Positions 12,889-33,005 of a DNA stretch of 33,005 bases are shown in pieces. Each line of letters begins with the position of its first letter. The stretch's first letter is position 1. The stretch lies in NCBI GenBank assembly GCA_945875955.1, contig CAMCNQ010000003.1, positions 1 to 33,005 on the forward strand. The letters are read 5' to 3'. The notes beneath the pieces are model-generated. The model worked only from the letters and a program-made list of their open reading frames with translations, made no database searches and had not been told where the DNA came from. This DNA comes from Limnohabitans sp. Rim8. Lineage in GTDB: Bacteria > Pseudomonadota > Gammaproteobacteria > Burkholderiales > Burkholderiaceae_C. Both the position numbers and the translations under genes were made by a program.

Positions 12889-14319
12889 ATGCCCCGTCGC
12901 GCCACCAAAATCGTTGCCACCTTAGGACCAGCTTCCAGCGATCCCGACTTGCTAGAAGCCATGATCCGAGGCGGCGTCAACGTCGTGCGGTTGAACTTCA
13001 GCCATGGCAAAGCCCAAGACCATGTGGACCGGGCCCGTCTGGTGCGTGAAGCCTCCAAGCGCGCTGGGCGCGAAGTGGCCATCATGGCCGACCTGCAAGG
13101 CCCCAAGATCCGCGTTGGCAAGTTTGCAGAGGGCAAGGTCATGCTCGAGCCGGGCATGCCTTTCGTGCTGGACGCCTCGCGCACCGAGCCTGGCGATTTG
13201 CAAGGCGTGGGCCTGGATTACAAAGAATTGCCCCGCGACGTGAAAGCCGGTGACGTGCTCTTGCTCAACGACGGGCTGATCGTGCTGAATGTGACCGCTG
13301 TCAAAGGCGAGCAGGTGCACACCACGGTGAAACTCGGCGGTGAGTTGTCCAACAACAAGGGCATCAACAAACAAGGCGGCGGCCTGACCGCGCCCGCGCT
13401 GACTGCCAAGGACATGGAAGACATCAAAACCGCCATGGGCCTGATGGCCGACTACGTGGCGGTGAGCTTTCCCAAAAACGCCACCGACATGGAAATGGCG
13501 CGCCAACTGTGCAATGTGGCCGGAGCCGAATACGGGCACAAACCGGGCTTGATTGCCAAGATCGAACGCGCCGAGGCCATTCCTCACCTCGAGGCCATCT
13601 TGCTGGCCAGCGACGGCATCATGGTGGCGCGCGGGGATTTGGCGGTGGAAGTGGGCAACGCCGCCGTACCCGCTTTGCAAAAACGCATGATCAAGATGGC
13701 CAAGTTGCACGACAAAGTCGTCATCACCGCCACCCAGATGATGGAAAGCATGATCACCAACCCTGTGCCTACCCGCGCCGAGGTGTCCGATGTGGCCAAT
13801 GCCGTGCTCGACGGCACCGATGCCGTGATGCTCAGCGCCGAAACCGCAGCGGGCAAGTACCCGCTGGAGACGGTGCTGGAAATGGCCAAAATCTGCGAAG
13901 CGGCCGAAAACGCCGAAGACACCTCGCTGGATGGCAACTTCAAAGGGCAGTTCAGCCGCATCGACCAGTCCATTGCCATGGGGGCCTTGTTCACCGCCCA
14001 CCACTTGGGTGCCAAGGCCATTGTGGCCATGACCGAGTCAGGCTCTACCGCTTTGTGGATGAGCCGCCACCGGGTGCACATCCCGATTTACGCGCTGACC
14101 ACCAAACTCACCTCACAGCGCAAGATGGCGCTTTACCGCAATGTGCGCCCCTTGCTGATGGACACCAGCGCAGACCGGGACACTGCCTTGGCCGAAGCCG
14201 AAATGCACCTGAAAAACCGGAACATCGTGGCCACGGGCGATGTGTACGCCATCACCTGCGGAGAACCCATGGGCTCGCCCGGCGGCACCAACATGCTGAA
14301 AATCTGCAAAGTCGGCTGA
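12889..14319 (+). CDS. pyk: Pyruvate kinase
   Basis: RRATKIVATLGPASSDPDLLEAMIRGGVNVVRLNFSHG, MVARGDLAVEVG, ATQMMESMITNPVPTRAEVSDVANAVLDGTDAVMLSAETA. Confidence 0.98.
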   Translation: MPRRATKIVATLGPASSDPDLLEAMIRGGVNVVRLNFSHGKAQDHVDRARLVREASKRAGREVAIMADLQGPKIRVGKFAEGKVMLEPGMPFVLDASRTEPGDLQGVGLDYKELPRDVKAGDVLLLNDGLIVLNVTAVKGEQVHTTVKLGGELSNNKGINKQGGGLTAPALTAKDMEDIKTAMGLMADYVAVSFPKNATDMEMARQLCNVAGAEYGHKPGLIAKIERAEAIPHLEAILLASDGIMVARGDLAVEVGNAAVPALQKRMIKMAKLHDKVVITATQMMESMITNPVPTRAEVSDVANAVLDGTDAVMLSAETAAGKYPLETVLEMAKICEAAENAEDTSLDGNFKGQFSRIDQSIAMGALFTAHHLGAKAIVAMTESGSTALWMSRHRVHIPIYALTTKLTSQRKMALYRNVRPLLMDTSADRDTALAEAEMHLKNRNIVATGDVYAITCGEPMGSPGGTNMLKICKVG

Positions 14320-14517
14320 TGTTTTTTGCCCGGGGCCCCATGCAAGCAAGTCTGCATTCGGCGTCTCAACCGGCAACAATGCCGTTTTCTCAAAGTGGGC
14401 AGGTTGGCAGAACTTGAGAGATGCGGCCACCCAATGCGTGAAAAACCGGCTGATGGTGACAAGGCAAAACCACCGCGTGCGCGCCTATAAAACCGACAAC
14501 GGCGGTGACCAGAATTT

Positions 14518-15879
14518 TCAGCTGGTTTTTTGGTCTGGCTTTGCGCTTTGTTTTCTGCCAATCGGGTAGTACTCCAAACCATGCTGTGTGACTTCATCCA
14601 CTTGATAAAGGTTGCGGCCATCAATGATCACAGGCGTCTTCAACCTGGACTTGATCTCGACAAAGTCTGGGCAAAGAAAGACCTTCCATTCGGTGACGAT
14701 CAACAGGGCGTCAGCCGGATGAACCCCATCGAGTGCGGCGATGGGCGTGTCGGCCATCGTGAGCCTGGTTTCGTTGCAGAACACAGACCGGGTCTTGGGC
14801 ATGGCCATGGGGTCGTAAGCAGAAATGCTGGCACCCGCAGCCAAAAGATCAGCGATGAGTTCAAGGCTGGGAGCCTGCCGTACATCGTCGGTGTTGGGCT
14901 TGAATGCCAATCCCCAGACAGCGAAATGCTTGTCGGTGAGGTCATCGCCAAACCGGGCTTTCACCTTTTGGCCAAGAAGGTGTTTTTGCAGATGGTTGGT
15001 CGCGTCCACGGCATTGAGGACTTTGAGATCAAGGCCGTGGTCGGCAGCCGTCTTTGTCAGCGCCTTGACATCTTTAGGAATACAGGAGCCGCCGTAACCG
15101 CAACCGGGATGCAGGAAGTGGTGGCCAATACGGGGATCAGCGCCAATGCCCTGACGGACGGATTCAATGTCTGCTCCTAGGCATTCAGCCAGCTTGGCCA
15201 TCTCGTTCATAAAGCTGATGCGGGCAGCAAGCATGGCGTTGGCGGCATATTTGGTGAGCTCTGCCGAGCGGACATCCATCACTATAAAGCGTTCATGTGT
15301 CGCCTGAAAAGGCGCATAGAGGGTGCGCATAAGACCGATGGCTTGCGCATCATCGGCACCAAGGATGATGCGGTCGGGATGCATAAAATCCTCAATGGCA
15401 GCACCCTCCTTGAGGAATTCCGGGTTTGAAACAACGCCGAACGGCAGATCCATCTTTCGGTCAGAAAGTTCCTTCGCAATGATGGCGCGCACGGTGTCGG
15501 CCGTACCTACGGGAACGGTGGATTTGTCCACGATGACTTTGTATTCGGTCATGTATTGACCGATGTTGCGCGCGGCAGTCACGACGTACTGCAGATCAGC
15601 CGAATCATCTTCATTGGACGGCGTGCCAACCGCAATAAACTGAATGGCGCCGTGCGCAACCGCCTGGGCCACGTCAGTGGTGAATCTGAGGCGACCCGCT
15701 TCGACGTTTCGGCCAACCATTTCAAGCAGACCGGCTTCAAAAATGGGCATGCCACCGGCATTCAAGATGCGAATCGTCTCTTCATTGAGGTCTAGGCACA
15801 GCACGCTGTTGCCGACCTCGGCCAAACATGCGCCGCTGACCAAGCCCACATAGCCTGTCCCGATGACTGTGATTTTCAT
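14518..15879 (-). CDS. ugd: UDP-glucose 6-dehydrogenase
   Basis: [42 protein letters not shown] (catalytic Cys), [20 protein letters not shown]. Confidence 0.97.
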
Positions 15880-16078
15880 TCTCTGGTCTGTGCTCTCGTT
15901 AAGGGGCCGATTCAAACACAAAGTGCAATAAGGACGAGGCCGTTAAGGGGTGGCTGCGAATGTCTTTATCAAGGCGCTCACCTTGTTGCTGTGCACCTGT
16001 CCAAGGAATTGAGCTGAAATGAATGGAATGGTTTTGGCTCAGCAAGGGACTGGTTTTTCGCGGGCAGCTTTACCAATA

Positions 16079-17431: not shown

Positions 17432-17686
17432 ATGACTGCTTCAAACACGCTGACTCTGCTGAAAAGCACGCTCCAAAAGCTGGGCAAGATTGACCCAAGC
17501 ACCGTCACCCTGGAAGCCAGCTTGTCATCGCTCAACATCGACTCGCTGATGTTGCTCGACTTGTTATTTGAAGTGGAAGACAAATTGGGCATCAGGATCC
17601 CAAACGACACGCCAAACCCCAACACCATTGGTGAATTGGTCGACCTGGTAGACGACATTCGCGCCAAAACGGCGGCAGCACATTGA
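17432..17686 (+). CDS. Acyl carrier protein
   Basis: LEASLSSLNIDSLMLLDLLFEVEDKLGIRIP contains the DSL phosphopantetheinylation motif; ~84 aa. Confidence 0.92.
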   Translation: MTASNTLTLLKSTLQKLGKIDPSTVTLEASLSSLNIDSLMLLDLLFEVEDKLGIRIPNDTPNPNTIGELVDLVDDIRAKTAAAH

Positions 17687-18939
17687 ATTCGTTACGTCCC
17701 CGGCGGGTGGCGGTCACCGGCATGGGCATCGTCAGCCAATTTGGCAACGATCCCGACATCTTCTTTTCGCGACTTCTCGCGGGCACTTCAGGTATTCGCC
17801 TGTTCAGTCGCGATAACGAGCCGATTCCGATCAGCCTGCCAGCCGCGCCATGCGATGCCTTTGATGCCGATGAAACACTGGGGGCAGAAGTCGCACGCCT
17901 CATGGATCGTTATTCCCAAATGGGCCATGCAGCAAGCCTGAGTGCATGGCGCGATGCCGATCTTGAAATTTCAAATGAACGTCTGGATGGCGGGGTCAGC
18001 TGGGGTACCGCCTTGGGGGGCACCCACACGTTTGAGGACGGTTATCGAAACCTCTATCTGAAGTCCCCGCCGGGGCGCGTCTCGCCACTTGGCGTGGTGA
18101 TGGGCATGAACAACGCGTGTGCCTCGCATACGGCCATGAAACTTGGGCTGGCCGGCCCTTGTCATACTTTCTCGGTCGCTTGCTCATCGTCCACGATCGC
18201 CATTGGTGAAGGATATCGGCGCATCCGATCAGGCGAATGTACGGTTCAGCTGGTTGGCGGCTCGGATGCAACGCTGTCCTATGGTGTATTGACCGCTTGG
18301 AAAGCCATGCGCGTCCTCGCGGAAGGGGACGAAACTGAGGCCCCCCATGCTTGCCGACCCTTCGATGTCAGCCGCAAGGGACTGGTCCTGGGTGAGGGGG
18401 CTGGCGCTTTGGTGCTTGAGGACTGGGAGATGGCGCAACAACGAGGCGTGCGCATCTACGCTGAAATGCTTGGCTATGGAACCTCTTGCGACCATGCCCA
18501 TCTGGTTCGCCCCAATCAGGCCGGCCAGGTGCGCGCCCTTCGCATGGCGCAACAGGAGTCGGGGCTTGACCTGACGGCGTTTGGCCACATCAATACCCAC
18601 GGGACGGCCACGCGGGAAGGGGACCCAATTGAAATTGCCGCCATCACCGAAGTGTTCGGTGCGCATGCAAGCAATATCGCGGTGAATGCCACAAAATCGA
18701 TGCACGGTCACATGCTCGGTGCGACCGGGGCTGTAGAAACCATCGCCACGATCCTCGCACTAAAACATCAGATGATTCCTCCGACTGCAAATCTTCAGAA
18801 CATTGATCCGACTTGCCAAGGTGTGCGCCATGTCGCAGGCCAAGCGCTGTATTTACCGGACCTCAAAGCGGCCTTGTGCAACTCTTTCGCATTTGGTGGG
18901 AGCAATGCTGTATTGGCGTTTTGCCGAACTGAAACATGA
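17683..18939 (+). CDS. Beta-ketoacyl-ACP synthase (FabF/KAS II-like)
   Basis: VAVTGMGIVS, catalytic Cys SVACSSSTIAIGEGYRRIRSG, NTHGTATREGDPIE, NATKSMHGHMLGATGAVE; TTG start overlapping the ACP stop (TTGA). Confidence 0.93.
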   Translation: MNSLRPRRVAVTGMGIVSQFGNDPDIFFSRLLAGTSGIRLFSRDNEPIPISLPAAPCDAFDADETLGAEVARLMDRYSQMGHAASLSAWRDADLEISNERLDGGVSWGTALGGTHTFEDGYRNLYLKSPPGRVSPLGVVMGMNNACASHTAMKLGLAGPCHTFSVACSSSTIAIGEGYRRIRSGECTVQLVGGSDATLSYGVLTAWKAMRVLAEGDETEAPHACRPFDVSRKGLVLGEGAGALVLEDWEMAQQRGVRIYAEMLGYGTSCDHAHLVRPNQAGQVRALRMAQQESGLDLTAFGHINTHGTATREGDPIEIAAITEVFGAHASNIAVNATKSMHGHMLGATGAVETIATILALKHQMIPPTANLQNIDPTCQGVRHVAGQALYLPDLKAALCNSFAFGGSNAVLAFCRTET

Positions 18940-18951
18940 TTTTCATCCAAC

Positions 18952-20079
18952 ATGGCAATTCATCAACAAGTTGCGACCAACGCCGACGGAAAAAAATCGC
19001 CAAGAATTGGCGCGATTTACAACCCCTCTGTGCCAGGCCACCGCGACCTGTTTGAAGCCCTTGCTGAACATACGCACGTCCGGGCCATCGCGCCAGCCGC
19101 CTTCAACGCACTGACAGATCGGCGAACTTCACGGCGGGTAAAGCCCTGTTATGTACCCATTTGGCCTGCCGATTTGCCATGGCGAAAAGTCCCCCACCAC
19201 TGGCTGGTTAAAAAGTTAATCGGGTCAATTGACGTCATTGTTTACACGCGCCCAGACCAGGCGCCCCTCCTTCCTGCATTCAAGGGGATTTACACGGTGT
19301 ACCTGGTCAATGACGATTACAGTCAGTATGGGCGCGCCAAAGTGTGGGAGGAAATGGAAGGGGAATTGCTGCAACGTGCTGACCTGATCATCGCAGTATC
19401 GCAAGCACTGGCTGAACGACTCATCAAGCACCATCACCTCACAAACCCCAATATTCATGTCTTGCCCAATGCAGTACCCGCCAGTCATGTTCCGGGCTTG
19501 CCGCAAAGCGGCCCGTGGGCCTTGCCTGAAGGCATGGCCCACATCAAGCGCCCTGTGGCGGGTGTTCTTGGGCGTATTTCCAGCCGAATAAGACTTGACT
19601 GGCTCGAACAGGCCATTGAAGCAACGCCATGGCTTCAATGGGTTCTCGCGGGCGACATTGACCATGGAGATTTGCTGGAGCAAGACCGTAGCCGCATCAG
19701 CCAATTAGCGAACCACCCGCGGGTCACCATGACCGGCTTCATAACCTATGATCAACTGGCGTCGATAGCCGCGAGCATTGATGTGGCTGTCATCCCCTAC
19801 AGCGAACGCTCGGTGAACCCACTGGGTAGCCCGATGAGACTTTTTTTGCATCTGCCACATGGCACACCCATCATTGCAACAACGGGCTGCAAGCAAATCA
19901 CAGACTTCGTACCCCTTGTGCTGATATGCAATAACCCTGAGGAAATGATCAAGGGACTTGAAACCTTGCGCAATCAAGCATTTGACGATGGCCAGAGAAA
20001 GGCTCGTTGGCTTGCCGCCAGCCAGCACACCTGGGAACATCGCGCCTTGGAATTACTCGCTTTGGTCGATCAGCGGTGA
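18952..20079 (+). CDS. GT-B glycosyltransferase (group 1-like)
   Basis: ADLIIAVSQALAERLIKHH...NIHVLPNAVP, GVLGRISSRIRLDWLEQAIEATPWLQWVLAGD, VAVIPYSERSVNPLGSPMRLFLHLPHGTPIIAT. Confidence 0.88.
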   Translation: MAIHQQVATNADGKKSPRIGAIYNPSVPGHRDLFEALAEHTHVRAIAPAAFNALTDRRTSRRVKPCYVPIWPADLPWRKVPHHWLVKKLIGSIDVIVYTRPDQAPLLPAFKGIYTVYLVNDDYSQYGRAKVWEEMEGELLQRADLIIAVSQALAERLIKHHHLTNPNIHVLPNAVPASHVPGLPQSGPWALPEGMAHIKRPVAGVLGRISSRIRLDWLEQAIEATPWLQWVLAGDIDHGDLLEQDRSRISQLANHPRVTMTGFITYDQLASIAASIDVAVIPYSERSVNPLGSPMRLFLHLPHGTPIIATTGCKQITDFVPLVLICNNPEEMIKGLETLRNQAFDDGQRKARWLAASQHTWEHRALELLALVDQR

Positions 20080-21854
20080 TGAAACAGATCACGCCCACAG
20101 TTTTGTCCAGCAACAATAGAACAGCATCGGACAATACAGAGCTGATCATTGTGAGTGGTGCCAGCATCGGCTATTTCCGCTGCATTGACCGTTTTCTTCT
20201 TTCTGCTGCACGACTTGGCCTCCAGCATCGCCATCGATTTGTTGTCTACGACCTTGGACTGCTCGATTCACAACGCCAAGAACTCATGCAATGGCACCCA
20301 TGGTGTGAATGGCGAGACTTTGATTTTGGCAACTATCCACCCCATGTTGCGCTGAGTTACAGCAGCTATGCATGGAAGCCCATCATCATTGCAAACTTGC
20401 TGGTGGAGTTCGGTTGCCAGGTGCTCTGGCTGGACAGTGCCAGCCTATTGCACGAAGATTTCTCTGCAGTCACTTCAACGCTTGGGAAAATTGGCACTTA
20501 TTCTTTAGCCGGGCAATCAACCATTAACGAACACTGTGACCCGAAGACCCTGAGCGCGCTTGCTACTCCACTGGAAGTTCTTAATCAGGCCGAGCGTGTG
20601 GCGGGTGTCATCGCCTTCGATGCGAAGCACCCTGAGGCAATGCGCATCGCCCTTGAGTGGCGTCGTCACGCGCTGATTGAGGCTCACATTGCGCCGAGCC
20701 AACCCAAACTCTACAGGCATAAACCTGAACAAGCTCTTCTTTCCATCTTGTTGCTTCAAGCCCGCCTGACCCAACGTCTGACATTGAACGACGACGAAAT
20801 CGACATCAGCTCAAAGCATCCCATCAAGTGGATGAGTTCCCGCCATAAAGTGGCTGACGACATGCCCCGCTGGGCCGATCTTCCGGTTCGGTTAGGCTAC
20901 CGAGCTTATAAATTTTTCGACCGCATCAATCTGCGCCTCATGCATTCATTTGTGCCCTTCATTGAGGGCTTGCTCCGCTTGCCCCATGATCACTATTGCT
21001 TGATCGTGCAACGAAAAGAAGAACCGCCGGTCATGATCGCATGCCCGTGGCTCTGCTACATGGCTGACCCCTTCGCCATCACGCACAACAACACGCTTTG
21101 GATTTTTGTTGAGGCCTATGACTACTTGAAATCTCGAGGGCGACTGCTCGCCTTGCAACTCGATGACAACATGCAGGTTGTTCAAAAAATCCAACCCATC
21201 GCCTTTCGCCACCACGTTTCTTTTCCTCTTTTACTGAAGGATGCGGGCCACTTGTACATGATTCCAGAAACCTCACACGCAAAGTGCATCGACCTGTATT
21301 TGTGCGAGGATTTTCCGGGTAACTGGCGGTGCGTCGCACGGCTATGCGACCATATTGATGCCGCTGACAGCGTTGCATTTTTTCATACCGACCGTTGGTG
21401 GCTTCTGACATCTGTACTCAAGCCTGGGGCCAAAACACGGCAGCTCTGCATTTTCTGGTCAATGACGTTACAGGCAAGCCACTGGAACGAACATCCGATC
21501 AACGAACAGAACCCTGAAGGCGCACACCCCGCCCCGCAACCACGAGCCGCTGGCGCAGTTGCCCGCCATGGCGACACCTGGCTGCGCCCCGTACAGATAA
21601 ATCCTCACGACTATGGCGAGTCGATGATGATCATGCAGATCGACCATCTTGACGAGCATCGCTACATAGAATCCCCCTACCATGGCGAGCACAGCATCCA
21701 TCAGATTGCAAAAAACTATCCGGCTAACCATGTCAGCATCGACAATGACATCCAAGTTTGGGATGTACGCGATCGAAGACGCTGGCTAGACCTTTTTTGG
21801 GTGCCCGCGAATTGCCAGGGATTACCGAACAAGCCCATGAGACTCAAACCGTGA
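20079..21854 (+). CDS. Fused protein: DUF1647-like glycosyltransferase domain plus GINT1-N-like beta-propeller domain
   Basis: N-terminus VSGASIGYFRCIDRFLLSAARLGL...VVYDLGL...WKPIIIANLL...VLWLDSASLL; C-terminus CYMADPFAITHNNTLWIFVEAYDYLKSRGRL...HVSFPLLLKDAGHLYMIPETSH...RPVQINPHDYGESM. Family assignment from memory. Confidence 0.6.
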   Translation: MKQITPTVLSSNNRTASDNTELIIVSGASIGYFRCIDRFLLSAARLGLQHRHRFVVYDLGLLDSQRQELMQWHPWCEWRDFDFGNYPPHVALSYSSYAWKPIIIANLLVEFGCQVLWLDSASLLHEDFSAVTSTLGKIGTYSLAGQSTINEHCDPKTLSALATPLEVLNQAERVAGVIAFDAKHPEAMRIALEWRRHALIEAHIAPSQPKLYRHKPEQALLSILLLQARLTQRLTLNDDEIDISSKHPIKWMSSRHKVADDMPRWADLPVRLGYRAYKFFDRINLRLMHSFVPFIEGLLRLPHDHYCLIVQRKEEPPVMIACPWLCYMADPFAITHNNTLWIFVEAYDYLKSRGRLLALQLDDNMQVVQKIQPIAFRHHVSFPLLLKDAGHLYMIPETSHAKCIDLYLCEDFPGNWRCVARLCDHIDAADSVAFFHTDRWWLLTSVLKPGAKTRQLCIFWSMTLQASHWNEHPINEQNPEGAHPAPQPRAAGAVARHGDTWLRPVQINPHDYGESMMIMQIDHLDEHRYIESPYHGEHSIHQIAKNYPANHVSIDNDIQVWDVRDRRRWLDLFWVPANCQGLPNKPMRLKP

Positions 21855-23500: not shown

Positions 23501-24526
23501 ATGCACGTCAATATCGTCTTCTCGGACAACGGCGTTGGCCTGTCGCGAGATGCCCGCATCATCAAAGAGGCACTTGGCCGCAGTGGTATCAAGGTGACTT
23601 TAACCCCCATCGAGGGGTTTCATTTCAACTTCGGCTTGAAGCAATTGACCAGAGTGCTCCAAGTCCGCTTGTTCGCCGGCTACCACTGGCTTCGTTACAA
23701 GCGCCGACCTTTCGATTTGACGCTGTTTTTGGAGCACATCGAACCCATCTATTGCCGACTTGGACACACCACCGGGTTCATGCCGAATCCTGAATGGGCC
23801 AATGAAATCGATGTCTCCCATTTGCATCGGGTTGATCACATATTGGCCAAGGTTCACGATACTCAGCGCATCTTTGAAGCGCAAGGCTGCCGTGTCACTT
23901 ACACGGGTTTCACCAGCGTCGATCGGAAATTACCCATCTCGGACGCTCAACGCCAACGCAGTTTTTTCCATCTTGCTGGAAAAAGCAGACAAAAAGGCAC
24001 GGCCACGCTGATTGAACTCTGGCAACGCCATCCCGAATGGCCCTTGCTGACCATCGTGCAACATCCAAAATTAAAAAGTCGTATGCCCGACCCACGCGAA
24101 ACGACAAATATTTGTCACATCGGCGAAACGCTGGATGACGAGGAACTCAAGGTCTTGCAAAACACGCACTTGTTTCACCTCTGTGCATCTGAAGCGGAAG
24201 GTTTTGGACACTACATCGTCGAGGCATTGAGTTGTGGCGCTGTCACGGTCACGACCAATGCACCGCCGATGAACGAGCTTGTCTCCACTGAGCGCGGCCT
24301 GCTCGTTGACCATGCCCGCACGCAAGCGCAGCACCTGGGCATGAACTACTACGTCAGTCACGAGGCGCTCGAAGCGGCAGTCAATCAACTGTTGGCCATG
24401 AGCACACAAGGCACCGAAGCGCTTTCAATCAAGGCCCGCGCTTGGTTCGAAGACAACGACCGACAATTTCAGCAAAACATCGTGTGTGCCGTGCGCCAAA
24501 TCCTCACAAAACCGGCAAGTCTTTAG
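23501..24526 (+). CDS. Glycosyltransferase (GT-B, group 1-like)
   Basis: FHLAGKSRQKGTATLIELWQRHPEWPLLTIVQ...HLFHLCASEAEGFGHYIVEALSCGAVTVTTNAPPMNELV. Confidence 0.88.
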   Translation: MHVNIVFSDNGVGLSRDARIIKEALGRSGIKVTLTPIEGFHFNFGLKQLTRVLQVRLFAGYHWLRYKRRPFDLTLFLEHIEPIYCRLGHTTGFMPNPEWANEIDVSHLHRVDHILAKVHDTQRIFEAQGCRVTYTGFTSVDRKLPISDAQRQRSFFHLAGKSRQKGTATLIELWQRHPEWPLLTIVQHPKLKSRMPDPRETTNICHIGETLDDEELKVLQNTHLFHLCASEAEGFGHYIVEALSCGAVTVTTNAPPMNELVSTERGLLVDHARTQAQHLGMNYYVSHEALEAAVNQLLAMSTQGTEALSIKARAWFEDNDRQFQQNIVCAVRQILTKPASL

Positions 24527-25506
24527 AAGCCATCGTTTCCAAACTGAGAATTTCCCTTTTTCCGATGCACCAGCCACCGGTCTGCAAAGTGTTTCAGCAC
24601 GATGGTGTTGTTGCGCGACAGGTGATCGCCGTTGCCCCGATTGATACGCCCGAGCGCAGAGGCTTTGTGCAGGGCAAAGCTGCCCTTGACTGGAAAGCCC
24701 GCTCGCCGAGTTGGAATGACGAACTTGGGCACAAGGCACTGGGCGCCCATCCAGACATCGTCGACAAAAAAGGCCGCTGTGGGGGCGTCACCATAGTCCA
24801 CCAAACGGGCAAGGTCAAAAAATTCGGGCTTGATCCAGTAGCCTGACATGCCTTGAAGAATATCCATCCGCCGCGGCTCACGCAGGCGCACCCCATGCAC
24901 TGGCGCCGGGGCCCTCATCAACAAATTGCTCAGTATCGTCGTCGGACGGTCGATCAAATCAGCAGGGGCATTCCATCCGGTCATGCTGAGCGCGCAACCA
25001 GGCAGCTCTTGTGCGGCGGCCACCAAATCGGCGACAAAATTGGGGGGATAGATCCGGTCATCGTCCACCACCAAAATGTCCTGAGACCCAGGCAGTGACA
25101 AGACGGCGGGTATGAATTTTGTTGCGGGGCCCCAATCGCGGTCGCATTCCATGATGCGTATCGACTTCAAGCCTTTCAAGCCAGGCGCAAGCGCATAGGC
25201 TCTTTTTTCCCGTTGCGAATACGACGGCAGGTAGAGGTGAATCTCTTTCGCCGGACACGTCTGTAGCAACAGGCTTTTGAGCGTTGGCTCCATCAAGTGC
25301 AAACGACTCGGGATGCTGGTCAAACTGATGATGACCTCGCTCTTGGGCGAACAAGCGGCATGCTTTTCATCCAAGTCCGACAATTTCATGCGGTGAAGGC
25401 GGTACTCGTGCCATGCATCCAGCAGCAGCCGCTCGCCCTCCATGAAGCCCATGACTCTCACAAGGATGACCAGCAACAGCAAGAGGCAAAAGGCAATCGC
25501 CATCAT
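24523..25506 (-). CDS. Membrane-anchored glycosyltransferase-like protein (GT-A, DDD motif)
   Basis: N-terminal TM segment; VIISLTSIPSRLHLMEPTLKSLLLQT..., DILVVDDDRIYPPNFVADLV. Confidence 0.75.
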   Translation of the reverse strand: MMAIAFCLLLLLVILVRVMGFMEGERLLLDAWHEYRLHRMKLSDLDEKHAACSPKSEVIISLTSIPSRLHLMEPTLKSLLLQTCPAKEIHLYLPSYSQREKRAYALAPGLKGLKSIRIMECDRDWGPATKFIPAVLSLPGSQDILVVDDDRIYPPNFVADLVAAAQELPGCALSMTGWNAPADLIDRPTTILSNLLMRAPAPVHGVRLREPRRMDILQGMSGYWIKPEFFDLARLVDYGDAPTAAFFVDDVWMGAQCLVPKFVIPTRRAGFPVKGSFALHKASALGRINRGNGDHLSRNNTIVLKHFADRWLVHRKKGNSQFGNDGF

Positions 25507-26373
25507 TTAAAAAACCACCCAAATGGCCAGTGGAATGGCCGCAAACAGGGTCGAGTCGTAGATGTCGACCAAGCCCCCGTGAAGAACACTGACTGCGGGG
25601 AAATCCTTGACGCCAGCAACCCGCTTCAAGCGCGAGGTGAACATGTCGCCCAGCACACCGCAGCTCACCAGCAAGGCTGCCAAAACGGCAGCCTGGTCGG
25701 CCGGCAGATCGAACAACCAGCCAGCCAAGCACCACGCGAAAGTGCCCGACAGCACCACCCCGGCCAATGCCCCTTCCATGGTTTTGTGGGGCGACAAACG
25801 CGGCAGCACTGGGCGACGACCGAATATCCGACCAAACAGGAAAGCCATCGAGTCGTTCATCTCAACGGTGGCATAAAGCAAAAAAACCCAGTAAGCGCCC
25901 TCATGGCGCATCACCAAGGCGGCCAAGCCAGCAACGGCCAGAAGTGGAAAAAGAACGGCAGCCGCAAGTGCCAGGGCGCCTGCTGGTCGCCGTTGCAGGC
26001 TGACAAAGTAGACGGGCAAAGCCAGTGACAACAATGCGAACAAGACCATGGACTGTTGAGTCGCGCCTAGCCAGATCCCAAACATGACACACAAGACCAC
26101 GCCGATTTGACCCCGATTGGAAAATGGCAGACCAAAAACCAAGGCAATCTCGTTGATGCAACGCCAGCCCAAAATGAAAATCGCCAAGACAAACAGCGCC
26201 GGATGCAAGAGCGCGGGGACCAGAAACATGCCAACGATCAATGCCGTACTCCGGAAGTATCGCCAAAGTTCCTGCGACAGCCCTTGCTTGCGTGAGCCAA
26301 AGCAATGGATGACCAAGGCGCTCACAACAAAAACACCCACCACGGGAATCAACAGAAACCAAGTCGCGATCAC
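25507..26373 (-). CDS. Phosphatidate cytidylyltransferase-like (CdsA-family) integral membrane protein
   Basis: SPHKTMEGALAGVVLSG, GDMFTSRLKRVAGVKDFPAVSVLHGGLVDIYDS corresponds to the CTP transferase signature with deviations. Confidence 0.87.
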   Translation of the reverse strand: MIATWFLLIPVVGVFVVSALVIHCFGSRKQGLSQELWRYFRSTALIVGMFLVPALLHPALFVLAIFILGWRCINEIALVFGLPFSNRGQIGVVLCVMFGIWLGATQQSMVLFALLSLALPVYFVSLQRRPAGALALAAAVLFPLLAVAGLAALVMRHEGAYWVFLLYATVEMNDSMAFLFGRIFGRRPVLPRLSPHKTMEGALAGVVLSGTFAWCLAGWLFDLPADQAAVLAALLVSCGVLGDMFTSRLKRVAGVKDFPAVSVLHGGLVDIYDSTLFAAIPLAIWVVF

Positions 26374-27176
26374 AGCGGTCGACCATGCGCCGCCTTCGCC
26401 ACCACATGGTCGAAGTAGCGATGCAAGAGTGGGGCGATCAGGCTGCCCCAGCGCGCCAAAAGACCCATTTCAAGGCCCGGTGTGATGCTGAAACTGCCCC
26501 TTTTCACGCCATCCAAAATCGCCTTGGCGACCGCATCGGCCGTCATCACCCGGGCCTTGCCGGCAATGGCAAAGGTTTCTGCAGGCTTGGTGCGGTTCTC
26601 AGCCTTCAGTTGTGGCGTGTCGGTATCTGGGGGAAACACCACCGAGACACGCACGCCTTCTCGGCTCAACTCATTGCGCAAGACTTCACCCAATCCCCGC
26701 ACGGCGAATTTGCTGGGTGCATAGGCCGCATAACCAAAAACCCCGGTCAAGCCCGCCCCTGAAGAAACCAGAACAACATGCCCTGAGCCACGCGCGCGCT
26801 GTGCGGGCAGAACTGCGCGCAGAACATGCAGGGTCCCAAAGTAATTGACGGCCATGGCCTCTTCAAAATCAGTCGAGGCGAGTTCCTCAAAATAGCCAGG
26901 TCGAGCCAGACCTGCACTGGTCATCACAAGATCAGGCACACCTTCAGCATCCATCAAGGCTTTGACGGCAAGCGCTGTTGCGACACCATTTCTGACATCG
27001 ACCGCTTGCCAGCTCACAGACAAAGCCCCGGCTGCACGCAAAGTTTCAGCCGCTGCCACCAAGCGCTCGGTCCCGCGCGCCATAAGGCTCAAGCGCCAGC
27101 CCTGCTGAGCCAGTTGTCGCGCCACAGCCAAGCCAATGCCGCTGCTGGCACCGCTGATCAATGCATGGCGAGTCAT
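26370..27176 (-). CDS. Short-chain dehydrogenase, 3-ketodihydrosphingosine reductase (KDSR)-like
   Basis: ALISGASSGIGLAVARQLAQQG, YAAYAPSKFAVRGLGEVLRNEL, and VVFPPDTDTPQLKAENRTKPAETF, which parallels the eukaryotic KDSR PPDTDTPGF..ENRTKPxET motif. Confidence 0.85.
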   Translation of the reverse strand: MTRHALISGASSGIGLAVARQLAQQGWRLSLMARGTERLVAAAETLRAAGALSVSWQAVDVRNGVATALAVKALMDAEGVPDLVMTSAGLARPGYFEELASTDFEEAMAVNYFGTLHVLRAVLPAQRARGSGHVVLVSSGAGLTGVFGYAAYAPSKFAVRGLGEVLRNELSREGVRVSVVFPPDTDTPQLKAENRTKPAETFAIAGKARVMTADAVAKAILDGVKRGSFSITPGLEMGLLARWGSLIAPLLHRYFDHVVAKAAHGRPL

Positions 27177-28390
27177 CCCATGGCATTCCTGGCCATCAAC
27201 AAGCCCGCAAGCTTGCCTGCTGCCATTTCAAGTTGAGCCATCGTGTGATCGGCGCTGATGAAAAACCGCAGCAAGGCACCGTTGATCGGAACCGCGGGAT
27301 AGATCACAGGCTGGACATGGACCCCCAGTTGAAGCAATTCATGGGAAATGCGCATGCACTCATACTGGTCGCCAATGACAATGGAGACGATCGGTGTGAT
27401 CCCTTGGGTGTCCACCGCCAAGCCGGCCTCATGAACGCAACGTCGAAAAGCCATGCTGTTTTCCTGCAAGCGCTTGACGCGCTGCGGCTCACGCTTCAAA
27501 ACCCGCAATGCGGCCAATGCCGCCGCCGCATCTGCTGGCGGCAGCCCCACACTGAAAATGAAACCAGGCGCAAGAAAGCGCAAATAGCGAATCAGGCTCG
27601 CATCACCGGCGATGAAGCCGCCGCAACTCGCCAGGCTCTTGCTCAGCGTGCCCATCTGTATGTCCATGCCACCAGGCGGCAGGCCAGAAAACTCACCGAT
27701 GCCACGGCCCGTTGCCCCCAGCACCCCAATAGAATGCGCCTCATCCACCATCAGGTCCACATCGTGACGGCGGCATGTGGCAAGCAATCGCTCGTAGTCT
27801 GGCAAATCGCCATGCATGCTGTAGAGACCTTCCGTCACCACCAGTACACGGCCAAAATCACCGCGTCGCTCGCTGAGCAAACCATCAAGCGCGGCAACAT
27901 CATTGTGTGGAAATGCCACGCGTTCGGATTTTGAAAGTTGGATGCCACTCATCAGGCTGTTGTGAGACAACTCGTCGTAGACGATCAGGTCGCGCTGCCC
28001 ATACAGATGGGCAATGGTCGTGACGTTGGTGTTGTAGCCACCCACGAACACCAGGCAATCCTCGGCCCCCAAGAACTGGGCAATCTCTTGTTCGAGTTCG
28101 CGATGCAGCGGAATTTCACCCGACACAATTCGGCTGGCAGAAACAGAGGTGCCGTACAAATCAATGGCCGCCTTTGCTGCAGATGACACCTCGTGATGAC
28201 CGCTCAAACCCAGATAGTTGTAACTGGAGAAATTGACCAGTGGCCCTTCACCCAGGTCAATTGAAGCCCCGTTAATCCCAAGGTGCGGTTGAAAAAACGG
28301 GATACGGTCTGCAAGACCCATCTGCGTTGCAATTCGTCGCTCTAATTTGCGTACGCCAGGAACAGAAGAAAAGCGAGAAGTGCGGGTCAT
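27173..28390 (-). CDS. spt: Alpha-oxoamine synthase, serine palmitoyltransferase-like
   Basis: NFSSYNYLGLSGHHEV, YDELSHNSLMSG, VDEAHSIGVLGATGRG, MGTLSKSLASCGGFIAG (PLP Lys); adjacent KDSR-like gene. Confidence 0.85.
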   Translation of the reverse strand: MTRTSRFSSVPGVRKLERRIATQMGLADRIPFFQPHLGINGASIDLGEGPLVNFSSYNYLGLSGHHEVSSAAKAAIDLYGTSVSASRIVSGEIPLHRELEQEIAQFLGAEDCLVFVGGYNTNVTTIAHLYGQRDLIVYDELSHNSLMSGIQLSKSERVAFPHNDVAALDGLLSERRGDFGRVLVVTEGLYSMHGDLPDYERLLATCRRHDVDLMVDEAHSIGVLGATGRGIGEFSGLPPGGMDIQMGTLSKSLASCGGFIAGDASLIRYLRFLAPGFIFSVGLPPADAAAALAALRVLKREPQRVKRLQENSMAFRRCVHEAGLAVDTQGITPIVSIVIGDQYECMRISHELLQLGVHVQPVIYPAVPINGALLRFFISADHTMAQLEMAAGKLAGLLMARNAMG

Positions 28391-29844
28391 TGGATGGTTG
28401 GCAAATTTGCGTAAATACGGACCAATTTGGCTGGCACAAGCTCCTCATCCATCGCGGTGGGCGATGCCAAGTGAAGATCGACCAAAGCCAAAGCGTGGGA
28501 AAGTTCAAGGTCAATCAAATGTTGAGCGGCCGAACTCCATCGCTCTGCTTGATCCAGCAACACACCTGCAGGATCAAAACCACTTTCAAGAGCCAATCGG
28601 GCCTGTCCAAGATGCGCATGCAAGCGCCCGACCAGTTCTTGCATTCTGAAGATCGCCGGGGAGATGTCCTGAAAACGGCGGGCCGAAATGCGCACCTCCA
28701 TTTCGATTCGCTGCGCCAATTCATCCTTGCGCAACTCAGCCAGACCGATCAAGGCTTCAGCCTGTTCTTGAGCGCCCATCTCGCGCCTGCCGCCCAGCGG
28801 TTTGACCCAACTGACCAACAGACGGTCCTGTGCCAGTTGGAGTGACAATGCAGAATCGGCCTCGCGCAAAATCGCCTTGGATTGCTGTCGTGCAGCTTGA
28901 ATTCGCGATGCCTCAGCCTGCAAATCAACCCGCCTCTCAAGCGCGGTTGACAAAAGCTGTTGCAAAGCCACATTGCTGATGCCGGCAATGGGCATGGGAA
29001 AGGGCGTCAAAAGTTCACCGATGCGATCAGGATCTATGCCAAGCAACAGGGCCAGTTCTAGTTGTGCGGCATGCCGCGTTGACTGCGTTTGTTCCAGAAC
29101 AAACCGAGCCTGGTTCGCACGCCCCACGGCAAGGTCAACATTTCGTCCTGAAAGGGTGCCTGCTTTGCCAAGGCGCATGGCCCGCCCTGCGAACTCGTCA
29201 GCGATCGCATTGAGTTCAGTGCAGACCGCTTGTTTTTTTTGTGCGGCCAAAAGGGCCCAGGACAATTTAAACAGGCGGGCCAGATGAAGCTGCCGTTGAC
29301 GCTCAACACTGGCTTGGCTTGCATCAAAATTGGCGCGCGCCGCATCAAGACGCAGTCGCTCAGGTGGCGCGCCCCAGGCGCTTCCGAGTGGCACCTCGAC
29401 CTCAAGGGTTGGCTGTGTACGCATGGCCTGTTGGTTCAACTGCAATGAACTCGCACCACCCATCACCTGCATGCCAGGCCGCACACGAATGCCGTTCTCA
29501 AAGAGTTTTCCAACGCTGGTGTGGGTGGCGCTGATGGTTTTGTAATCTGTTCCAGTGGTCAAGAAATCACCGAATGCCACGGGAACAGGCAGACGTCGGT
29601 AACCCGTTCCAGACCGCAAAGACCAATCAAAAAGTCCTTCTGCCGCGTGCACAAGCCCTTTGGCATTCATCGTCTCAAACGTGGCCTGCTTGGAACCCAC
29701 AGAAGACTTACCGTTCAATCCAATTTCAAGGATTTGCTCAAGCGTCATGCCCGTTTGGGCAAAGAGCGCATTGGCATGGGTGAAAAGCGCGGCGGCCAGC
29801 AAACTGCACTTCAGAGCAAGAAAGCCACGTCCGGTTAAATTCAT
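28387..29844 (-). CDS. TolC-family outer-membrane efflux-like protein
   Basis: Signal peptide MNLTGRGFLALKCSLLAAALFTHANALFAQ, then MTLEQILEIGLNGK... with two coiled-coil repeats (RRVDLQAEASRIQAARQQSKAI). Confidence 0.8.
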   Translation of the reverse strand: MNLTGRGFLALKCSLLAAALFTHANALFAQTGMTLEQILEIGLNGKSSVGSKQATFETMNAKGLVHAAEGLFDWSLRSGTGYRRLPVPVAFGDFLTTGTDYKTISATHTSVGKLFENGIRVRPGMQVMGGASSLQLNQQAMRTQPTLEVEVPLGSAWGAPPERLRLDAARANFDASQASVERQRQLHLARLFKLSWALLAAQKKQAVCTELNAIADEFAGRAMRLGKAGTLSGRNVDLAVGRANQARFVLEQTQSTRHAAQLELALLLGIDPDRIGELLTPFPMPIAGISNVALQQLLSTALERRVDLQAEASRIQAARQQSKAILREADSALSLQLAQDRLLVSWVKPLGGRREMGAQEQAEALIGLAELRKDELAQRIEMEVRISARRFQDISPAIFRMQELVGRLHAHLGQARLALESGFDPAGVLLDQAERWSSAAQHLIDLELSHALALVDLHLASPTAMDEELVPAKLVRIYANLPTIQ

Positions 29845-30489
29845 CCTGTGGTCGCCTGGCAATCAAACACATTAATTAAAAAATAAACCGGAAATACCAG
29901 TTCAAATCGGCGGCTTTTTATCCAGCCTGTTGGCAATTCATTGTATCTGAGCAGCAGGCCCATGAGGGCGAGCTCTGGAAAACGGCTTCGCCCATATTCT
30001 TCAATCAGTTCCAAAAAAACAAATACAAATAATAATACTTTATGAACTTTAATAAATTAATTCAATCACCAATTATTTAAAATAAACGGCTGCTGTGCCC
30101 ACTCAAAACCCATAATGCACTGGATCTGGCGACGTTTGACTCGGTAGGCTCACCCATCACCGGCGGCTGCGTTTGCTGGGGCATGTTTCAACCTAAACCC
30201 GGCCGTTGGCCGCTTGCTTGCGCTTGAAACACTTGATGAACCAAACACTTGCGCCCACGACGGTCTTCACCTCATGGGTCAAGCGCTGCACGGCAGCAGG
30301 TCTGCCGCTTCAGGCCTCTGGCGTTGTTGCTCGCACCCCCCGGACAGGCAGTCCCGGGGGCAGTCGCGCCTGGCCAGAGACCTGATTCGTCAGCCCCTCG
30401 GCCGTGCCCAACTGCCGGATTGAGGTTCAAATGCAAACGCTGAAAAAAACGCCCCGCAATTGGACATGCAGAACGCGGCAAAGGGCTGA

Positions 30490-30734: not shown

Positions 30735-31871
30735 ATGCCAAAAATCGCCATCGCCGGACTGGGCAATTGCGCAAGCTCCCTTTTGCAAGCATTGGGGGCA
30801 TCTGCCAAGGACCGTCTTTCTGGTTTGATGCGAGAACGCATAGGACCATGGTCATGCGGTGATATTGAAGTGGTTGCAGCCTTTGACATTGACAGGCGCA
30901 AAGTCGGACTGGCGATTGGGCAGGCCGCGTTTTCCGCCCCCAATTGCACCCAGGTCTTTGAGCCTGATCTCTCCCAGTTTTCGACAAGCGTGATGATGGG
31001 CCCTGTACTTGACGGGGCAGCTTCTCACATGAAAGAGTATCCCGAGGAAATCACGTTCGCCGTGGCCGACCTGTCGCCGGTTGATGTGGCCGAAGAACTG
31101 AGGCGTTCCGGTGCTGAAATACTGGTCTGCTATTTGCCTGTTGGCTCCGAACAGGCCGTTCGCCATTACGCCCAAGCCTGCCTCGATTCAGGGGTGGCCC
31201 TGATCAATTGCGTGCCCGTCTTCATCGCCTCAGACCCCGAGTGGTCAGCCCGCTTTGCTTTGGCTGGTTTGCCCATCATCGGGGATGACATCAAAAGTCA
31301 GTTGGGGGCAACGGTGCTCCATCGAACCCTTCTCAGGCTGTTTGAGATGCGCGGAATTCGCATTGACCGGACTTACCAGCTCAACACGGGGGGCAACACC
31401 GACTTTTTAAACATGCTGGCCAGGGACCGTCTCGCATCCAAAAAGAAGTCAAAGACCGGGGCTGTTCAATCGTCGCTGGCCACCGCATTGCCGAATGAAA
31501 ATGTTCACATCGGACCTTCTGACTTTGTCCCTTGGCAAAAAGACAACAAAGTGTGCTTTCTTCGAATCGAAGGTCGCGGCCTTGGGGACGCCCCCATTGA
31601 ACTCGAACTTCGCTTGTCGGTTCAGGATTCACCAAACAGCGCGGGGGTCGTGCTCGATGCGATTCGCTGCATGAAATTAGCACTCGATCATGGCATCGGT
31701 GGCGCACTGACAGCCCCCTGTGCCAATTTCATGAAATCGCCACCCCAACAATTCAGCGATGAAGACGCGCACAGGCTTTGTGACGAATTTATTGACAGCT
31801 TGCACCAAGACCAAACCAGCAGCCACACAGGCCCTGTGCCCGCAGCGTCTTTTGATCAGGATTCCCAGTAA
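30735..31871 (+). CDS. ino1: myo-Inositol-1-phosphate (inositol-3-phosphate) synthase, INO1 type
   Basis: MPKIAIAGLGNCASSLLQAL, GDDIKSQLGATVLHRTLLRLFEMRGIRIDRTYQLNTGGNTDFLNM, VLDAIRCMKLALDHGIGG. Confidence 0.95.
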   Translation: MPKIAIAGLGNCASSLLQALGASAKDRLSGLMRERIGPWSCGDIEVVAAFDIDRRKVGLAIGQAAFSAPNCTQVFEPDLSQFSTSVMMGPVLDGAASHMKEYPEEITFAVADLSPVDVAEELRRSGAEILVCYLPVGSEQAVRHYAQACLDSGVALINCVPVFIASDPEWSARFALAGLPIIGDDIKSQLGATVLHRTLLRLFEMRGIRIDRTYQLNTGGNTDFLNMLARDRLASKKKSKTGAVQSSLATALPNENVHIGPSDFVPWQKDNKVCFLRIEGRGLGDAPIELELRLSVQDSPNSAGVVLDAIRCMKLALDHGIGGALTAPCANFMKSPPQQFSDEDAHRLCDEFIDSLHQDQTSSHTGPVPAASFDQDSQ

Positions 31872-32485
31872 CTGTCTGTGCGGCGAAGTCTGGCTTCCTC
31901 CGCATCCTTGGGGTGATAGGTGCTGTGCAGTCGCCCTGTGTATCCGCGGCGCTTGACGCGCCAATCCTCCCCGTAGCGAAAGGCCAGAACTTCTTGTGCA
32001 AGGCAGGGGATGCGCACGGGCAAACCATGCCACAAGTGCCAGTCCCGTTTTTCGACCAGCGCCATTGAAATATCACTGAACGGGCCCTCGCAACCCACCA
32101 ACAATGGTCTTTTGTGGTCAGGCCGATAAACATAGATGTCGCAGTGCACCGGCAGCCAACGAAAATACGCACAATAAGAGCGGCGGTTGAGGTCTTTTTT
32201 CAGAACAAACCAAAAGTGATGCTGGCTGCAGAGTTCATCGAGTTTGTCCATGGTCTCTGGCATTTCAACCACCGAGAGATCGACATCGGTATCCCCCAGG
32301 ATCACGCCACCATCGCGGATCAACCCCAGCAAAGTGCCGTAGTCAGCCCAATAATCGACGGCAGCGTGGTTGAGTTTGCGAAACACGGCGCGCGCAAACA
32401 GGGTCAGCACGGAGCGCTGAACCTGGTCGTATATCCAGCCACCAAGGCGGTAGAAAGCGCCCCATTTTTCAAACGCGATTTTCAC
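31856..32485 (-). CDS. LicD-family protein (nucleotidyltransferase/phosphotransferase fold)
   Basis: YWADYGTLLGLIRDGGVILGDTDVDLSVVE matches the LicD GTLLG..R.....DxDxD pattern; GTG start at 32485 overlapping the upstream stop (GTGA). Confidence 0.8.
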   Translation of the reverse strand: MKIAFEKWGAFYRLGGWIYDQVQRSVLTLFARAVFRKLNHAAVDYWADYGTLLGLIRDGGVILGDTDVDLSVVEMPETMDKLDELCSQHHFWFVLKKDLNRRSYCAYFRWLPVHCDIYVYRPDHKRPLLVGCEGPFSDISMALVEKRDWHLWHGLPVRIPCLAQEVLAFRYGEDWRVKRRGYTGRLHSTYHPKDAEEARLRRTDSYWES

Positions 32486-33005
32486 AGGGCCTCCGCATCT
32501 TGCTGACCATGGTCTCGACGCCAAACCCGTGCCGTCTCTTTGATCCGTTCAACCCAATAGCCATTGCTGAGTTTCTTCAGCAAATCAGGGCCAAATGCAT
32601 CCGCATGGGCATGCTGCCACCGCTGTAAATTGTCGGGGGTCACTTCAGTGAATGACTCGACAATCACCACGGGCAAAGCCTCGTCCTCGTAAAGCGGGTC
32701 AAGCGAGGATGCTTTGACGACAGGCACACAGCCCAGGGCCAGCGCCTCCCAGGTTCGAAAACAGTCCAAGCCCTTGCCATGCGGCGAGAGTTCAAATGCA
32801 AAATGGTCGTGCATGCGCCAACATTCGACTTGTGGAATACGGTGGGTCACAAACATACAGCTTGGACTGTCTTTGAGCAACTCATAGGCAAGCAGACGGT
32901 CTGGAATTTCCCTGAAATTCGGAATGAATTTTTGGTTGAAGTGAAACGTGCACATGGCCCGAGTTTCCTTTTGGGCAAAAGGGGTCGTGAGCCCCTCTCG
33001 CACCT
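32482..33005 (-). CDS. Exostosin-like (GT47-like) glycosyltransferase, 5' end outside the window
   Basis: HDHFAFELSPHGKGLDCFRTWEALALGCVPVVKASSLDPLYEDEALPVVIVESFTEV; ORF runs off the window edge. Confidence 0.7.
   Translation of the reverse strand, partial: VREGLTTPFAQKETRAMCTFHFNQKFIPNFREIPDRLLAYELLKDSPSCMFVTHRIPQVECWRMHDHFAFELSPHGKGLDCFRTWEALALGCVPVVKASSLDPLYEDEALPVVIVESFTEVTPDNLQRWQHAHADAFGPDLLKKLSNGYWVERIKETARVWRRDHGQQDAEAL

Follow-up and report, generated by a model that had tools for sequence, protein, structure and literature searches.

An unusual fusion of a DUF1647 transferase-like domain with a GINT1_N propeller in a probably foreign capsule-like or glycolipid locus of Limnohabitans

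The window, that is the whole stretch of 33,005 nucleotides that was analysed, encodes a protein, P0001, that is a real and unusual domain fusion; the surrounding locus is foreign and of a glycolipid or capsule-like kind. Its reading frame is open from the ATG at 20079 to the stop at 21854 and specifies 591 amino acids. By a modest balance of probability we favour the explanation that P0001 acts with its two domains in the assembly of lipid-linked glycans, its gene being carried on a laterally acquired island. This reading is based on its domains, the model of the propeller, the residues that are kept, the operon, the glycan-locus neighbours of other GINT1_N genes and the matches of the alpha-oxoamine synthase (AOS) and SDR reductase of the window to a capsule module. 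The protein is divided as follows.

20079..21854, plus strand: P0001, a DUF1647 glycosyltransferase-like half and a GINT1_N propeller half, 591 aa
20079..20890, plus strand: N-terminal half of P0001, residues 1-270, DUF1647, putatively a GT-A-like transferase (Pfam DUF1647; aligns with two stand-alone DUF1647 proteins)
20931..21851, plus strand: C-terminal half of P0001, residues 285-591, GINT1_N, predicted beta-propeller (Pfam, AlphaFold2, Foldseek, invariant columns)

An earlier sequence-only reading of this DNA had assigned the C-terminal half to the GINT1_N family and had placed a separate transferase-like domain in front of it. It was correct on both halves, since Pfam recognized DUF1647 (PF07801) at residues 13-105 of the whole protein (35.6 bits, E 9.7e-9; curated cut-off 25.7 bits) and GINT1_N (PF24793) at residues 327-533 (69.6 bits, E 2.9e-19; curated cut-off 27 bits), and each domain was kept when the halves were scanned apart (36.9 bits for the N-half and 71.9 bits for the C-half alone). 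The boundary that had been guessed agrees with the position near residue 285-300. The quoted motifs ADPF, FVEAYDY, HVSFP, IPETS, RPVQ and YGES map onto conserved columns of GINT1_N; FVEAYDY is present as given, whereas the segment after it is LKSRGRL and differs from the quoted form. A second fusion of DUF1647 with GINT1_N was not found, and the combination was seen nowhere else in the sequences searched. Close relatives of P0001 were absent among 60 relatives, in the genome contigs (scanned with a single-protein pattern) and in phages. Plasmids searched with P0001 gave matches to the C-half only, and viral contigs contained no relatives of either half.

The N-terminal half was aligned with two stand-alone DUF1647 proteins (L045 and L047) from another genome of the class, which are about 20% identical to it over about 230 aa, the full transferase domain, and which, unlike P0001, are without a propeller. 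Common to P0001 and these relatives are the motifs YAWK, a W-x-D site and H-x-x-x-QA. The W-x-D site reads LWLDSAS in P0001 and WCDAGN in the relatives, so that P0001 has DSAS in place of the canonical DxD, which counts against the explanation preferred here. No solved relative of the N-half was found when the PDB was searched with the DUF1647 profile; its fold is probably GT-A-like. DUF1647 is present in 2 of 274 genomes of the class, the source genome included, and in the source genome only among 399 genomes of the phylum. DUF1647 proteins sit in glycosyltransferase-rich gene clusters of C. elegans, according to a survey (PMC7614267).

A model of residues 285-591, calculated with AlphaFold2 from an alignment of 71 sequences, reached a pLDDT of 84.9 and a pTM of 0.83; the model of the whole protein from its single sequence was not usable (pLDDT 36). 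The best PDB matches of the C-half model in Foldseek were propellers of GH117, GH43 and GH130 (E about 1e-6, probability 1.0) with TM-scores of about 0.5, by which the fold class is clear and the active-site geometry is not fixed. The structure check that had been suggested for this half thus returned a GH43/GH117/GH130-type beta-propeller, and as such the C-half is modelled here. All residues that are invariant in the GINT1_N family are kept in P0001 (D330, E345, H379, E397, D430, H472, R489, R503, Q506, E531 and D562). The fold matches of the model would suit a propeller that acts as a hydrolase or transglycosylase and trims or transfers sugars, while the N-half supplies the substrate. Matches to GH43 (PF04616) at E<=0.001 in 13 of 37 GINT1_N relatives point in the same direction, the displayed scores all being below the curated Pfam cut-off of 32.2 bits. 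However, P0001 itself has no Pfam match to GH43, and we regard a hydrolase as quite unlikely. In the glycan-assembly enzyme that we prefer, the N-half would transfer a sugar to the growing lipid-linked oligosaccharide, and the propeller, judged by its conservation and fold, would hold and maybe modify the glycan at a funnel of conserved acids and arginines, either as the site of acceptor recognition or as a second active module. To our knowledge, no activity or structure has been reported for any bacterial GINT1_N or DUF1647 protein.

GINT1_N was found in 21 of 369 genomes of the class and in 50 of 399 genomes of the phylum. The wide GINT1_N alignment was too diverse to serve as the basis of a pattern search. 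A pattern scan of named genomes yielded 469 relatives, and the 80 loci that were kept belong to several phyla, including Pseudomonadota, Bacteroidota, Chloroflexota, Planctomycetota and Gemmatimonadota. The common bacterial form is about 550 aa long and has an N-half that is weakly formyltransferase-like (Pfam, 1 of 37; NCBIfam fmt, 5 of 37), and stand-alone proteins have about 300 aa. One protein of 1208 aa (L026) has GINT1_N at its N terminus with a probable signal peptide, followed by discoidin-like and PKD-like repeats that were assigned by eye. That the partners of GINT1_N vary (formyltransferase-like halves, GT64 in plants, DUF1647 here) or are missing would be expected if the propeller were a non-catalytic targeting or scaffold module and the N-half did all the chemistry. 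This is unlikely, because the acids, histidines, arginines and glutamine that are invariant across many phyla suggest a binding or catalytic site of its own, as do the stand-alone copies, that with the probable signal peptide among them.

To place the fusion in its locus, the genes of the window beyond the end of pyk are given here.

14518..15921, minus strand: UDP-glucose/GDP-mannose dehydrogenase (UGDH), first island gene after pyk (PF03721)
17432..17686, plus strand: acyl carrier protein (ACP) of 84 aa with a DSL phosphopantetheine site, opens the operon (PF00550, E 1.7e-8)
17683..18939, plus strand: beta-ketoacyl-ACP synthase (KAS), FabF-like
18952..20079, plus strand: GT4-type glycosyltransferase, its stop overlapping the ATG of P0001
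21758..23485, plus strand: ABC transporter, transmembrane and ATPase, cyclic-peptide/PRK10522-like exporter
23501..24526, plus strand: GT4-type glycosyltransferase
24523..25506, minus strand: P0002, putative GT2-like glycosyltransferase, DDD motif (no Pfam match, by eye)
25507..26373, minus strand: CdsA-like cytidylyltransferase (PF01148, E 2.2e-34)
26370..27176, minus strand: SDR reductase, RkpH-like (43% identical to the SDR that immediately follows the AOS in Sinorhizobium sp. K101)
27173..28390, minus strand: AOS, RkpG/WcbT-like, the 'SPT' of the earlier reading (45-54% identity to capsule-locus/PKS-linked AOS)
28387..29862, minus strand: outer-membrane efflux protein (OEP) (PF02321, E 1.6e-6)
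30735..31871, plus strand: myo-inositol-phosphate synthase homologue (INO1), mycobacterial type (PDB 1gr0, PF01658)
31856..32524, minus strand: LicD-like protein (PF04991, 24.6 bits; cut-off 22.6)

P0001 is part of a plus-strand operon in the order ACP, KAS, GT4, P0001, ABC transporter and GT4, the genes of which overlap or nearly abut. It is faced by an operon of OEP, AOS, SDR, CdsA-like and glycosyltransferase genes, beyond which lie INO1 and the LicD-like gene. The true start of the ABC transporter is probably a GTG that overlaps the stop of P0001. The ACP gene, directly 5' of KAS, was missing from the list of open reading frames, and a fragment at the contig end (within 31856-33003, minus strand) has a weak, below-cut-off similarity to RXYLT1_C/exostosin. 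PKS, KpsC/S and polymerase genes were not recognized in the window, a point against the capsule-like lipid route considered below. Defence systems gave no match.

The region from about 14.4 kb (synteny with the same genus ends at about 14320) to the contig end at 33005 was most probably acquired laterally, as an island. This is concluded from four observations. Two genomes of the same genus align with the window at 82-83% over des1-pyk only and stop at 14314-14320. G+C is 59.9% before the end of pyk and drops to 54.5% beyond it; at third positions the corresponding values are about 0.80 and about 0.6. UGDH is 53-57% identical to genes of the same genus and up to 66% identical to genes of other families. 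Finally, the same-genus genomes searched contain neither P0001 nor an AOS of comparable closeness. A mis-binned contig was considered and rejected, because the contig also carries pyk, which shares 84-95% identity with its counterparts in same-genus genomes, and because the two relatives align through des1-pyk. Within a plasmid collection the best match of pyk is from Neisseria (58%), which, taken with the size of the class, points to a betaproteobacterial (GTDB Burkholderiales) genus. Genes of the island may be missing, since the source assembly is a draft in 347 contigs, 80% complete, and this contig stops at 33005.

The gene at 27173-28390 had been taken for a serine palmitoyltransferase (SPT). 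Against the three NCBIfam SPT equivalogs its product scored 307.5, 279.3 and 220.6 bits, where the cut-offs are 640, 500 and 670; a gene from another GINT1_N locus (L197), the positive control, scored 607 bits against the cut-off of 500. The identity as a canonical SPT was therefore rejected. The closest relatives found, with 45-54% identity, are AOS from capsule/PKS loci of Pseudomonas, Planktothrix, Caballeronia, Paraburkholderia and Sinorhizobium; a PKS adjoins each annotated one, and LTA synthase, SDR or capsule genes adjoin several. Judged by these relatives, the AOS appears to be RkpG/WcbT-like. We take the names RkpG, RkpH and WcbT for the AOS and SDR from synteny and from the literature (PMC3908369, PMC7902896; Kiss et al. 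1997 as listed in their references). On a Streptomyces plasmid, a single gene (L150, about 4.8 kb) seems to encode a KAS region and an AOS region together. In the glycan-assembly reading the lipid anchor would be made by KAS and ACP and then by the AOS and SDR, as their homology of 43-54% suggests, and the product would leave through the ABC exporter and the OEP.

An INO1-type synthase near P0001 had also been claimed, and this is a real homologue. Its closest solved relative is the inositol-3-phosphate synthase of M. tuberculosis (1gr0, E 1.6e-108, residues 12-367), and it matches PF01658 (E 3.2e-33); with TIGR03450, the mycothiol equivalog, it gave 401 bits, below the cut-off of 638.

The co-occurrence of GINT1_N with sphingolipid and inositol genes was assessed in about 125 distinct GINT1_N neighbourhoods of at most 10 kb per side, some ended by contig ends, with the window proteins as queries. 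INO1 occurred in none of them and an SPT-like AOS gene in three, which share synteny and belong to a single alphaproteobacteria-like family, so that GINT1_N is found mostly in loci without such genes, the outcome that the earlier reading had named as refuting its idea. The one AOS tested of these three is the positive control mentioned above, which passes the SPT model. The commonest immediate neighbours were GT4 transferases (15 of 67), together with UDP-sugar dehydrogenases and MurJ/MatE; among named plasmids, those of Novosphingobium, Sphingobium and Sphingomonas have GT4 and flippase or LPS genes near GINT1_N, and one of Acinetobacter has GT25/GT2 genes there. This indicates that GINT1_N is a domain of glycan loci with one sphingolipid-linked lineage. 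In the latter (L197, L206 and L207) a stand-alone GINT1_N lies less than 10 kb from the SPT gene, a possible real link with sphingolipids in one family; the L197 region also holds LptFG-like, fatty-acid hydroxylase, DAGK-like and GT4 genes.

These three loci would fit the alternative that the island is a bacterial counterpart of plant GIPC glycosylation and makes an inositol-containing sphingoid lipid, to the headgroup of which P0001 adds a sugar. INO1 would then provide inositol phosphate, the CdsA-like enzyme CDP activation, AOS and SDR the long-chain base and UGDH UDP-GlcA, all of which, with the LicD-like gene, are encoded on one contig. The CdsA-like and LicD-like genes are moreover comparable to the Caulobacter phosphosphingolipid cluster, where CC_1161 parallels the CdsA-like gene inside the AOS operon (PMC11324152). 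We nevertheless judge this very unlikely. The AOS scores below the SPT cut-offs and shares its highest identity with capsule AOS, INO1 is missing from all the GINT1_N neighbourhoods, GT64 is absent and GINT1_N is general to glycan loci. Furthermore, genes for a CDP-alcohol transferase, a ceramide synthase or AasR were not recognized in the window. Three CDP-alcohol transferases were found on other contigs of the source genome, which speaks neither for nor against an inositol lipid. It is likewise highly improbable that the island makes an inositol-bearing sphingoid-like glycolipid without canonical SPT, through free KAS/ACP, a capsule-type AOS, SDR, a CdsA-like enzyme and INO1, with P0001 as the headgroup glycosyltransferase. 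If that were true, GINT1_N would have an ancestral role, common to bacteria and plants, on lipid-linked glycans of this kind. The sphingolipid-inositol reading of the island is kept as a minority hypothesis.

Of the interpretation put forward by the sequence-only reading, the domain calls and the INO1 homologue stood, and the SPT identity, a general co-occurrence of GINT1_N with sphingolipid and inositol genes and, beyond that domain, the likeness to the plant enzyme did not. The plant connection of P0001 is mainly nominal: 'GINT1' in the name of the domain denotes its first annotated relative and not the reaction of P0001, and 'inositolphosphorylceramide' should not be read into bacterial annotations that bear it. 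As GINT1_N occurs widely in the glycan loci of bacteria, where its partner domains are swapped and its conserved residues stay intact, its function can be tested in simple bacteria.

Compared with known systems, the N-terminal domain of plant GINT1, a GIPC GlcNAc transferase, belongs to the same Pfam family (PF24793) as the C-half of P0001. The plant GINT enzyme is a member of GT64 (PMC9113257). Its propeller is followed by a C-terminal GT64 catalytic domain, whereas in P0001 the transferase comes first and GT64 (PF09258) is absent according to Pfam; GT64 was not found in its own genome either, and the control genomes were also without a match. Stand-alone bacterial copies score up to about 200 bits with GINT1_N, compared with the 71.9 bits of P0001. 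Those from Sphingomonadales and relatives (L197, L216-L218) adjoin GT4 and flippase genes and, unlike P0001, have no N-terminal transferase; in a tree of 76 GINT1_N domains P0001 groups on their side with weak support, its position being unsure because of its long branch. The proteins of about 550 aa (e.g. L060-L139) share the C-terminal propeller and have GT4 genes as neighbours in their glycan loci, but carry the formyltransferase-like N-half instead of DUF1647. The rkp/wcb PKS clusters act in capsule synthesis and export (PMC3908369, PMC7902896). Their lipid module (RkpA-RkpG-RkpH) has AOS and SDR in common with the window, as is seen in Sinorhizobium sp. K101, where adjacent AOS and SDR genes match those of the window (45% and 43%). 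In place of the modular type I PKS of this module the window has a free ACP and a FabF-like KAS, and it adds the INO1, CdsA-like and LicD-like genes.
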